Shown here: in pieces, positions 1-9,018 of the stretch | Position numbering within the stretch: position 1 is the stretch's first letter | Layout of the letters: the number at the start of each line of letters is the position of its first letter | Assembly: GCA_903872005.1 (NCBI GenBank) | Contig: CAIQJD010000958.1 | Span: 1 to 9,018, forward strand | Direction of reading: 5' to 3' | From: an uncultured bacterium | GTDB lineage: Bacteria > Chloroflexota > Anaerolineae > JACIWP01 | DNA length: 9,018 bases | Notes under the pieces: model-generated | What the model saw: only the letters and a program-made list of their open reading frames with translations | What the model was told of the DNA's origin: nothing | Database searches by the model: none | Made by a program: the position numbers and the translations under genes

Positions 1-148
1 AGGCAGCCAGGCCGGCGCCGGCGGCAGTCAGGCTGGCCCAGCGCAGAAAGGCACGGCGCGAGGAGCCGACAGACGAATGCGCCGGCGGGGTGAGGTCAAA
101 AGCCGCGTGATCCGAGGGCGTGCGTGCATCCTTCATGCTGTTATCCAT
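1..148 (-). CDS. Tat-exported protein, N-terminus only (runs off left edge)
   Basis: Reading the minus strand from ATG at 148-146 gives 49 residues open to the window edge. The start is polar (MDNSMKDARTPSDHAAFDLT), then SSRRAFLRW, then a hydrophobic Ala/Gly/Leu run. The S-R-R-A-F-L box followed by a moderately hydrophobic stretch is the twin-arginine (Tat) signal pattern, so the mature protein is probably exported folded, as many cofactor-containing enzymes and binding proteins are. The mature domain lies outside the window, so function cannot be named. A second in-frame ATG at 136-134 is an alternative start; a GAGAGG run lies directly against the first ATG and 12 bases from the second, so the choice is open. 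Transcribed divergently from the histidine kinase. Seen: reading frame and RR motif. Inferred: export. Confidence 0.72.
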   Translation of the reverse strand, partial: MDNSMKDARTPSDHAAFDLTPPAHSSVGSSRRAFLRWASLTAAGAGLAA

Positions 149-202
149 CCTCTCGCGTCTGAGCGGCGCACCCATTGCGCCGGAAATGACCCACTGCGCG
201 TA

Positions 203-211
203 ATGATACCA
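203..211 (-). promoter_or_regulatory. Possible extended -10 promoter for the Tat-signal gene
   Basis: On the minus strand the sequence TGG-TATCAT (211 to 203) matches an extended -10 box (TGn plus 5/6 of TATAAT). It would start RNA near base 196 and leave a leader of about 48 bases before ATG 148. No convincing -35 lies at 16-18 bases. This is the most A+T-rich part of the 149-302 gap. Prediction by eye only. Confidence 0.3.
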
Positions 212-254
212 TATTTCGGTCAAAATTGAGAATCGGGATAGCCTAAAAGTCAGG

Positions 255-2730: not shown

Positions 2731-3459
2731 ATGGAAGATGCCGAATCCTGGGAGGACGCGCCGGCCGGCGACGCGCCCGTGCTGGTGGCCGTGATGCGAG
2801 ATCGGGCCGATTGGGCGCGCCTGCTGGCCGAAGGCTGGTATCGCGTGCCGGCGCGCCGCGCCCCGCCCCAGATGGCCGCCGACTACCTGGCTTTCTACCA
2901 CACCGCCGCATTCCCCGCAGAGAAATGGAGCATCCGCTACTATGCCGCCGTGCGTGGCGTGCGCGTCGTGCGCCGGCGCGACCTCTTGCCGGCCGAAGCG
3001 GAGCATCCACGCGCCGGCGACGCCTACTTTCGCTTTGATCTCGGCCCCGTCTTGACGCTGGAGCGGCCGGTCTTCAGCCGGCGGCTGCGCCGCGTCACGT
3101 TCATCCATACGACCCTGGAGCGCCTGCAAACGGCCGGCGATGTGAGCGAGTTATGGATCACGCAGCCGCTGCGCGAGCGGCTGTGGATTGAGCTGAATCG
3201 CCAGGGAGCGCCGGCCGAAGCCGCGCCGGCCGACCTGCTCATCGCCTGCCAACACGGGCGCGTGGCGGTAGAGTGCGCCCCGCCGCAAGCCCTCGACGGT
3301 TTGCGCGACGGGAGCCTGACCTTGCCCGGTCAGGCTCCGCGAGAATTGGATGGCGTGTGGCTCCGTTTTGAGGACGCCGGCTGGCCGGCGCTCCTGGCGC
3401 CCTACATCGAGCGCATCTGGGCCGAAATCGGCCGGCTGGGCGGCCCCGCCGGGGCCTGA
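2731..3459 (+). CDS. Uncharacterised protein with degenerate nuclease-like C-terminus
   Basis: 242 aa, starting 10 bases after the kinase stop; no strong ribosome binding site, so translational coupling is likely. I cannot name it. The N-terminal two-thirds (residues about 15-145: VLVAVMRDRADW, EGWYRVP, YLAFYHTAAF, KWSIRYYA, RVTFIHTTLERL) resembles, from memory, an uncharacterised module that in other bacteria precedes a Vsr/DUF559-like PD-(D/E)xK endonuclease domain. The C-terminal part keeps the outline of that fold: an ERLWIELNRQG helix, then PADLLIACQHGRVAVECA (D168, E181), then a beta strand and terminal helix (YIERIWAEIGRL). The usual IECDG is ECA and the following H/R-rich catalytic stretch is missing. 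If the homology holds, the protein is probably not an active nuclease and may bind nucleic acid or be a remnant of function. No signal peptide or membrane segment. The coding frame is undamaged, so it is not an obvious pseudogene. Confidence 0.8.
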   Translation: MEDAESWEDAPAGDAPVLVAVMRDRADWARLLAEGWYRVPARRAPPQMAADYLAFYHTAAFPAEKWSIRYYAAVRGVRVVRRRDLLPAEAEHPRAGDAYFRFDLGPVLTLERPVFSRRLRRVTFIHTTLERLQTAGDVSELWITQPLRERLWIELNRQGAPAEAAPADLLIACQHGRVAVECAPPQALDGLRDGSLTLPGQAPRELDGVWLRFEDAGWPALLAPYIERIWAEIGRLGGPAGA

Positions 3460-3490
3460 CGACGGGTATGTTTCACGATGGGGGTGAATC

Positions 3491-3553
3491 GTAGCTTAGC
3501 GCCTTGTGCGCGTCCGACCGGGGCGCCAGAACGCCCACAAGGGGCTAAGCTAC
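3491..3553. repeat. 63-base palindromic repeat, copy A (hairpin between convergent genes)
   Basis: Arms 3491-3508 (GTAGCTTAGCGCCTTGTG) and 3536-3553 are inverted repeats matching at 17 of 18 positions around a 27-base loop; a further 4 base pairs can form inside after one mismatch. It fills most of the 139-base gap between two genes that converge (stops at 3459 and 3599). The same sequence, inverted, recurs at 6792-6852, so it is a dispersed element and not just a local terminator. No T-run follows either arm, so a classic intrinsic terminator is not supported, but such a stable stem could still stop or protect transcripts. The rest of the gap holds nothing recognisable. Confidence 0.75.
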
Positions 3554-3598
3554 GCCCCAATCCCCGCTGTCCGCTCCCCCAAACACACTTCTGACGGC

Positions 3599-6761: not shown

Positions 6762-6791
6762 GCGACGCCGGGCGTCTTGGGGCGCGTGTGT

Positions 6792-6852
6792 GTAGCCTAG
6801 CCCCTTGTGGGCGTTTGGGCCTCCGGTCAGACGCGCACCAGGCGCCGGCTAC
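6792..6852. repeat. Palindromic repeat, copy B (decayed, opposite orientation to copy A)
   Basis: The first 24 bases match the reverse complement of copy A with one mismatch (GTAGCCTAGCCCCTTGTGGG and onward). The second part (GGTCAGACGCGCAC, then GGCG...GCTAC) also matches, with a few substitutions and small gaps. The right arm has decayed (CCGGCTAC where copy A has TAAGCTAC), so the hairpin is weaker. It lies between the two divergent promoters of the 6663-6957 gap, upstream of both genes. The remaining bases of that gap (6853-6908) hold nothing I recognise. Confidence 0.68.
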
Positions 6853-6957: not shown

Positions 6958-7962
6958 ATGACTGCCTTGCCCGATCTCTATCCGCTCACCTTCGAGCCGG
7001 CGTTCCGCTCCTACATCTGGGGCGGGCGCAATCTGGAAGCCTGGGGCCGGCGGCTGCCGGCCGGGCCGGTCGCCGAAAGCTGGGAGATCAGCGGACACCC
7101 GGCCAGCCCCACCTGCGTCAAAGTCGGCCCCCTGGCCGGCCGGCCGCTGACCGAGCTGGTGGAGGAGCTGGGGCCGGCGCTGTTGGGCTGGCGCCATGCC
7201 GAGGCGCTGCGCCGGCGGCGTTTCCCCTTGCTGATCAAGCTCCTGGATGCCGCTCAGACCCTCAGCGTGCAGGTGCATCCCAATGACGCCTACGCCGCGG
7301 CCCACGAGGGCGGCGAATGGGGCAAGACCGAGATGTGGTACATCCTCAGCGCCGCGCCGGGTGCGCGCATCATCTATGGCCTGCGCGCCGGCGTCACGCC
7401 GCAACGCTTCCGCGCTGCCCTGGCCGCCGGCGATCTGGAATCGTGCTTGCACTATCTGCCGATCCGGGCCGACGACGCCATCTTCATCCCCGCCGGCGCG
7501 ATCCACGCCCTCTTGGGCGACGCCATGGTCCTGGAAATTCAACAGACCTCCGACATCACCTATCGGGTGTATGACTGGAACCGGCCGGGCGCCGACGGCA
7601 AGCCGCGCCCGCTGCACATCGAGCCGGCGCTGGAAGTGATTGACTTCAGCCTGATCGAGCCGGCCGCCTGTGGGGCGGTCGCGACGGCGACGCCCGATGG
7701 CGTTGTGCGCCGGCGCCTGTGCGGCAACGCCCCTTTCCTGGTGGAGCGGATCGAGCTGCCGGCCGGCGCGCGCTGGGATGGCTGTTGCGACGGCTCGACC
7801 TTCGAGATTTGGGCGACCCTGGCCGGCGCCGGCCAACTCCTGTGGGCCGGCGGGGCGCAACCCCTGCCGGCGCTGCAATTGGCCTTGTTGCCGGCGGCCC
7901 TGGGCGCATTCCAGATGCAGGCCGACCGGCCGTCGGTCTTCTTGCGCGTTGGCCTGGCATGA
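6958..7962 (+). CDS. manA: Mannose-6-phosphate isomerase, type I (short form)
   Basis: 334 aa, the length of the Bacillus-type short phosphomannose isomerases. Cytoplasmic zinc enzyme that interconverts mannose-6-phosphate and fructose-6-phosphate, feeding GDP-mannose and glycan synthesis or mannose use. Zinc-site residues are in place: Q105 and H107 in SVQVHPNDAY, E125 in GKTEMWYIL, H183 in IPAGAIHAL. The catalytic arginine R203 is in the DITYRVYDWNR segment. Other family landmarks: YIWGGRNL near the N-terminus and ESWEIS at 40-45. The C-terminal cupin half is present. The stop overlaps an ATG (7959-7961), but only a 15-codon frame follows. It has its own promoter and is divergent from the MFS gene; no other mannose gene is nearby. 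Confidence 0.96.
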   Translation: MTALPDLYPLTFEPAFRSYIWGGRNLEAWGRRLPAGPVAESWEISGHPASPTCVKVGPLAGRPLTELVEELGPALLGWRHAEALRRRRFPLLIKLLDAAQTLSVQVHPNDAYAAAHEGGEWGKTEMWYILSAAPGARIIYGLRAGVTPQRFRAALAAGDLESCLHYLPIRADDAIFIPAGAIHALLGDAMVLEIQQTSDITYRVYDWNRPGADGKPRPLHIEPALEVIDFSLIEPAACGAVATATPDGVVRRRLCGNAPFLVERIELPAGARWDGCCDGSTFEIWATLAGAGQLLWAGGAQPLPALQLALLPAALGAFQMQADRPSVFLRVGLA

Positions 7963-7998: not shown

Positions 7999-8109
7999 AT
8001 GCCTGACCATGCCTTCCGTCCCATCCTCCTGGCGCAGATTCGGCTGCTGCCCGGCCGGTTCCAAAAGCGCCTCGACGCTCAATTCCTTCTGAGGAGACGA
8101 TTCATCTGA
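7999..8109 (+). CDS. Possible 36-aa small protein upstream of DUF362 gene
   Basis: ATG 7999 to TGA 8107-8109, preceded by GGAGAGGG (7983-7990) at 8 bases, a good ribosome binding site. Its stop overlaps the DUF362 start codon (TGATG), the usual sign of coupled translation. The peptide is basic toward its end (LLRRRFI) with no recognisable motif. It may be a leader peptide that couples translation to the next gene, or a chance frame. Supported by site and overlap only. Confidence 0.33.
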   Translation: MPDHAFRPILLAQIRLLPGRFQKRLDAQFLLRRRFI

Positions 8110-9018
8110 TGCCTACCGTGAGCCTGGTTCGCACGCCCCCCGCTCCTAGCTTCGAGCAGGTCGAAATCGCCGTTCGCCAGGCCGTGGCGCTGGCCGGCGG
8201 GCTGCAAGAGATTGTCCGCCCCGGCCAACGGGTGCTGCTCAAACCCAATCTGGTTGCCTCGCCGGCCCATCCGCGCGCCGGCGCCTGCACCAGCCCCGAA
8301 GTCTGCCGGGCGCTGGCCGTCATGGTGCGCGAGCTGGGCGCGCATCCTCTGATTGCCGAATCGGCCGCCGTCGGCGTGGACACGGAAGCCGCGATCCAGT
8401 TCATGGGCTACGGCCGGCTGCGCGATGAGGGGTTCGAGGTGCTCGACCTGAAAACTGCCGCGCCGGCGACGTTGGCCCTGCCCGACGGCGAAGTGGTGCA
8501 GGAGATTCAGACCTGGGAGCCGGTCGTCTCGGCCGATGTCATCATCAGCGTCGCCGTGATGAAGACCCACGACCAGTGCGAAGTGACGTTGAGCCTGAAG
8601 AACCTGAAGGGCATCATCACCGACGCCGAAAAGCGCCGGCTGCACCGCCGCGATAGGCGTCCCCACCACTTCAATCTGGCTCAGGTCGGCCACGCCCAGA
8701 CCGCGCTCAGCGGCCCGCCGGGTGATGTCCACTTCCGCGAGGTCGAAGCCCATCACGGCCGCGGCCACCGCGTCGGTGGCGACCAGGTCGCGGCCGGCCA
8801 GGACAAGATCCATCTCCAACGGGATGCCGCGCAGCGGCCCCAGCCCCTCCTGACACCAGATGCCGTCAATGACGCAGAAGGCCGGCTTGAAAGCCGCGGC
8901 CAGGTCGCATGTGCCGCCGGTGACGCCCAGGCGGTGCAGCAGGCGCTTGTCGGCGTCGGTGATGAGGCCCTTCAGGTTCTTCAGGCCCAGGGTCACTTCG
9001 CACTGGTCATGGGTCTTG
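8109..9018 (+). CDS. DUF362-family protein, N-terminal 180 aa, frame then crosses an inversion junction
   Basis: ATG 8109, with GAGGAG 12 bases upstream. Residues 1-180 are a clear DUF362 (COG2006) N-terminal half: VRPGQRVLLKPNLV (K45-P46-N47), TSPEVCRALAVMVRELG, the KTHDQCEVTLSLKNLKG core (K152-T153-H154), then TDAEKRRLHR. Family members are uncharacterised proteins, some linked to iron-sulfur chemistry. After R180 (base 8648) homology stops. The frame stays open to the window edge only because it reads the antisense of another DUF362 gene piece, giving a His/Gly/Gln-rich meaningless tail. So the true gene is truncated here: the expected LGVTGG...IDGI...D..A...MG half is missing on this strand. 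Start, homology and break are all visible in the sequence. Whether the break is biological is not. Confidence 0.82.
   Translation, partial: MPTVSLVRTPPAPSFEQVEIAVRQAVALAGGLQEIVRPGQRVLLKPNLVASPAHPRAGACTSPEVCRALAVMVRELGAHPLIAESAAVGVDTEAAIQFMGYGRLRDEGFEVLDLKTAAPATLALPDGEVVQEIQTWEPVVSADVIISVAVMKTHDQCEVTLSLKNLKGIITDAEKRRLHRRDRRPHHFNLAQVGHAQTALSGPPGDVHFREVEAHHGRGHRVGGDQVAAGQDKIHLQRDAAQRPQPLLTPDAVNDAEGRLESRGQVACAAGDAQAVQQALVGVGDEALQVLQAQGHFALVMGL
8562..9017. repeat. 87-base inverted repeat formed by two DUF362 gene pieces
   Basis: Left arm 8562-8648 and right arm 8931-9017 (read on the minus strand) align without gaps over 87 bases with 7 differences. Both encode KTHDQCEVTL(S/G)LKNLKG and on to LHR. 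The 282-base interval is minus-strand DUF362 coding sequence. The right arm may continue beyond the window. Four of the seven differences change amino acids (S/G, I/L, E/D, R/L), so these are two diverged gene copies, not one sequence folded back on itself. Confidence 0.88.
8649..9018 (-). pseudogene. DUF362-family protein, middle and C-terminal piece (enters from right edge)
   Basis: Minus strand, codons from 9017 downward: KTHDQCEVTLGLKNLKG, LITDADKRLLHRLGVTGG, FKPAFCVIDGIWCQEG, GIPLEMDLVLAGRDLVATDA, MGFDLAEVDI, then VGTPIAAV at about 8650. About 122 residues are a good DUF362 C-terminal half and contain exactly the part missing from the plus-strand gene. Below about 8649 the frame stays open as far as 8079, but that stretch is only the antisense of the plus-strand DUF362 gene. 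The last C-terminal residues therefore appear to be lost. The N-terminal half would lie beyond the right edge. The junction cannot be placed better than about 8641-8655. If the join is an artefact, this is simply a piece of an intact gene placed here wrongly. Confidence 0.82.

Follow-up and report, generated by a model that had tools for sequence, protein, structure and literature searches.

We analyzed a 9,018-nucleotide stretch of DNA (hereafter the window) from an uncultured bacterium of the Anaerolineae (contig CAIQJD010000958.1). Nine proteins, out of 52 listed open reading frames, were scanned with Pfam: a histidine kinase, an ABC-2 permease, an ABC ATPase, an MFS transporter, a phosphomannose isomerase, two DUF362 pieces, and two proteins without a match. 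The DUF362 pieces lie on opposite strands at the right end of the window. The first, on the plus strand (8109–8648), comprises the opening 180 codons of a DUF362 gene and matches positions 1–136 of the 200 positions of PF04015 (E = 1.6e-30, 107.1 bits). The second, on the minus strand (9017–8652), matches positions 109–199 of the same model (E = 3.2e-19, 70.2 bits). Both exceed the PF04015 gathering cut-off of 24 bits.

The closest homologue among the matches listed is P0001, a complete DUF362 protein of 390 residues. The plus piece is 86% identical to P0001, a value that none exceeds among 120 of 297 matches listed, and the minus piece is 89% identical, the best among 120 of 323 matches listed. 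P0001 itself has no solved-structure relative detectable by sequence at E 0.001, and it falls far under the cut-off of its sole NCBIfam match (105.3 of 500 bits). The initial annotation had proposed aligning both pieces to an intact DUF362 protein. This alignment places the plus piece at residues 1–180 of P0001 and the minus piece at about residues 152–276. The plus-strand reading, which had been described as losing its sense at about 8648, does track its homologues to the residues LHR, ending at 8648, and homology stops after the join. The minus strand had been said to encode a middle and C-terminal part. The middle part is there, but the C-terminal ~114 residues, which include several cysteines, were not found in readings through the join. 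Thus, a complete P0001-like protein with its cysteine-containing C-terminal part is not present; the pieces reach only about residue 276 of 390.

Self-comparison of the window by BLAST yields one strong inverted pair. Its left arm (8562–8649, plus strand, encoding KTHDQCEV to LHR) and right arm (9017–8930, minus strand) match over 88 nt with 92.05% identity (81/88, E = 3.3e-31) and are separated by a loop of 280 nt. Seven bases differ between the arms, and four of these differences change the encoded amino acid (S/G, I/L, E/D, and R/L). The earlier description of an 80/87 repeat with four amino acid changes is therefore correct; the lengths of 87 and 88 nt differ only in whether base 8649 is counted. 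The exclusion of a simple fold-back also holds: arms formed by fold-back of a single molecule would be identical, and their divergence calls for another switch or another template. The feature sits at most 370 bases from the window's end. Since the right arm touches the window edge, its homology probably continues past position 9018.

The minus piece is not uniform. Its outer part (8832–9017, KTHDQ to GLGPL) is identical to P0001 at all 62 residues, while its inner part (8643–8831, RGIPLEMDL to GTPIAAV) differs from P0001 at 14 of its first 60 residues. That is, identity falls from 62/62 over residues 1–62 to 46/60 over residues 63–122. This contrast, judged on protein letters and not on DNA, was compared over 122 positions with 197 of 199 homologues, the other two being left out because they had over three gaps there. 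Among 446 other homologue pairs with 10–18 differences, which are not independent of one another, none had zero differences in the first 62 residues and two had one, with the 62/63 boundary picked after the data were seen. None of these pairs had an identical run of 62 residues (the longest was 53), a comparison that needs no chosen boundary. The first half is naturally better conserved, since residues 1–62 hold on average a share of 0.41 of the differences between homologues, but less markedly so than in the comparison with P0001.

At the four arm residues that differ, the minus arm agrees with P0001 and the plus arm does not; at the S/G position, P0002 and P0003 match the plus arm. Because of this agreement and the 62/62 identity, the outer part of the minus piece looks like an allele from an organism of the P0001 type. 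For the inner part, a third allele or that of the window organism itself may be involved. It is not necessarily the latter, because the inner part stands further from P0001 (14/60 residues differ) than the plus piece does (26/180).

The join falls on the loop side of the arms, where arm homology stops, on the 7-nt word CACCGCC (8643–8649, plus strand). This word ends the plus piece and, on the minus strand, forms part of the GCGGCGGTG of GTPIAAV. The minus reading stays homologous through IAAV; when reverse-complemented, 8643–8651 reads GCG GCG GTG, the final three codons of these residues. GTPIAAV represents the last native residues of the minus piece, and the equivalent in P0001 is GAPIAAVGRRF. 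Since IAAV occurs in P0001, the CACCGCC bases are probably native to the minus piece as well as to the plus piece. In a simulation of 100,000 position pairs from the same region, an overlap of at least 7 nt at random positions had a frequency of 0.0015.

Next to the DUF362 gene, the window carries a phosphomannose isomerase gene (6958–7962), whose product is 81% identical to P0201 (JGI). P0001 and P0201 each come from a contig of 15038 bases, presumably the same one. We considered whether P0001 might lie on the window's own contig and rejected this, as the P0201 of the 15038-base contig is only 81% identical to the window's isomerase and so belongs to a related organism. Given that P0201, like P0001, is on a 15038-base contig, both organisms appear to share the DUF362/phosphomannose isomerase neighborhood. 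Another isomerase, P0200 (ENA), matches that of the window at all residues but one (R for L), and the longest contig of its cluster is 2952 bases; it therefore represents a near-identical strain assembled elsewhere.

Plasmid records gave no match to 8000–9018, and viral contigs scanned with P0001 gave none either. A scan of genome contigs returned one distant relative, 53% identical, in a Dehalococcoidia metagenome-assembled genome (locus L001). Of 400 genomes from the phylum of that locus, 133 had a DUF362 match. The best among the matches listed was 46% identical and belonged to the same genome as L001, and among the matches listed for this 400-genome sample none was sufficiently similar for use as a DNA reference.

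We conclude that the last 370 bases are very probably a technical inverted chimera combined with a strain switch, with part of an ordinary bacterial gene turned back on itself. The rearrangement probably arose outside the cell, during amplification, library preparation, or assembly. A chimera had been the more sober option of the initial annotation, and it gains support from the 7-nt microhomology, the loop size, a join located at the arm edge, and the mosaic minus piece. On this reading, a strand copied from a DUF362 gene would stop in CACCGCC at about codon 181. This end would anneal to a GGCGGTG word some 280 nt downstream in the same-sense strand of a DUF362 gene. The annealed strand would then be extended backwards, so that the start of the gene is followed by a reversed copy of its middle and the two arms enclose a 280-nt loop. 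The outer half of the reversed piece would come from, or be assembled through, the allele of a related organism of the P0001 type, which would explain why the arms are not identical. This second switch probably lies near 8831/8832. A change of allele would fit a sample that holds several related strains, whether through a second template or through the assembler.

Published chimeras show much of the same anatomy. According to the available text of one study, 406 of 475 phi29 chimeras were inverted, and more than 70% of junctions were primed at 2–21 complementary nucleotides (PMC1855051). There, inverted joins are attributed to re-priming of displaced 3' ends on a neighboring strand, and hairpin self-priming is assigned no major role (PMC1855051). 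For reverse-strand chimeras counted at read level, the available text of a second study reports a distance peak at 250–300 nt and an overlap peak at 6 nt, with most overlaps at 5–8 nt (PMC4595205). The window resembles these MDA chimeras, as far as they are described there, in its inverted join, its 7 nt of microhomology, and its pieces about 280 nt apart (PMC1855051, PMC4595205). The distance of 280 nt and the overlap of 7 nt are inside the published ranges and the allele change fits mixed strains, and we thus read the feature as a technical chimera.

The correspondence is not complete. Unlike MDA chimeras from a single template, the window's arms are 92% and not 100% identical, which implies that a second allele was involved. 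In the case favored in MDA, both pieces derive from one molecule or genome, which may or may not apply here: the arms are 92% identical, and the minus piece is mosaic with P0001-type sequence. Ligation-based nanopore libraries yield false inverted-repeat reads in microbial DNA, a further likeness to the window, according to the available portion of the source (PMC13141652). These false reads are described in that portion without microhomology-primed joins between alleles (PMC13141652).

The chimera might also have formed in a single technical switch, with the whole minus piece taken from one naturally mosaic gene of a third strain. We regard this variant as possible but rather doubtful. Related bacteria do exchange gene segments by recombination, a single join is the simpler assumption, and the inner part is more distant from P0001 (14/60) than is the plus piece (26/180), as a third allele might be; however, no intact protein with the same mosaic was found among 120 of the 323 matches listed for the minus piece. 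The data fit the two-switch form and the third-strain form alike and do not tell them apart. Microhomology joins arise in cells too. Replication template switching in cells would be expected to produce the same anatomy, with a 7-nt microhomology and a short inverted duplication. Thus, the window could carry a real scar, in which a microhomology-mediated inverted duplication during replication or repair left a broken DUF362 gene beside an inverted piece from a related copy. An arm difference of 8% is what divergence, or the presence of two paralogues, would lead one to expect. A scar would nevertheless need an extra recombination event to account for the abrupt change from 62/62 to 46/60 identity with another organism's protein, and its location no more than 370 bases from the window's end would have to be a coincidence. 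We therefore consider an in-cell scar unlikely. Still another in-cell origin is a template switch onto an imported DUF362 allele of the related organism, leaving a broken gene and an inverted foreign piece as a natural cross-species chimera; this we consider highly unlikely.

The more striking proposal of the initial annotation was a reversible inversion by which two facing DUF362 paralogues would swap their C-terminal halves. Invertible phase-variation switches do exchange gene ends, and their homologous arms face each other. The window shares this layout, with two homologous 88-nt arms in inverted orientation, but differs in three respects: neither orientation holds a complete gene within the window, the join falls at the arm edge and not inside the arms, and the Pfam scan of nine window proteins revealed no recombinase. 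When 8650–8929 is inverted in silico, the plus strand stays in frame to about residue 276, beyond which it reads reversed arm sequence, and the minus strand turns to nonsense after the arm. The flipped form ends in nonsense after GTPIAAV and never reaches a C-terminus. In neither orientation does the window encode a full DUF362 protein, and the exchange of C-terminal halves is therefore unsupported. Comparison with other genomes also argues against facing paralogues. Six loci of one related Dehalococcoidia genome (L001–L006) have one DUF362 match each, although L001 and L002 are apparently the same gene, giving five places, and L002–L006 are only about 4 kb long. In the 400-genome sample, with at most four candidates scored per genome, the only opposite-strand pair on one contig among the matches listed lies about 25 kb apart (genome G394, contig 73). 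In the literature searched, we found nothing that combines "DUF362" with "invertible." With no C-terminus in the flipped form, no recombinase among the nine proteins, and a closest listed homologue that is complete and presumably has the same phosphomannose isomerase neighbor, the proposed reversible exchange is not borne out, and we give it almost no weight. What looks like a gene-flipping switch most likely does not exist.

Diverged inverted arms at the end of a sequence can thus mimic an inversion that exchanges gene parts. The features that point to a chimera here are the word at the join, the length of the loop, the absent C-terminus, and the mosaic allele. Divergence between the arms by itself leaves an artifact possible where a sample holds several related strains.

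Away from the right end, the window holds several other features. A cut-off open reading frame at the left edge (2–223, minus strand) has no Pfam match and contains RRAFLRWASLTAAGAGLAA, which we take to resemble a twin-arginine signal. A 242-residue open reading frame (2731–3459, plus strand) immediately follows the histidine kinase gene and has no Pfam match at E 0.001. Between two convergent genes, a strong hairpin spans 3488–3556 (-40.9 kcal/mol, z = -5.25). An inverted copy of 55 nt of this hairpin, 87% identical, is found about 3.2 kb away between divergent genes (3490–3554 versus 6792–6845). Folding of this second copy (6770–6850, minus strand) is not clearly better than that of shuffled sequences (z = -1.47, with 18/200 as good), and the hairpin element has no Rfam match. 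Together, the hairpin and its inverted copy look like a small repeated intergenic element.
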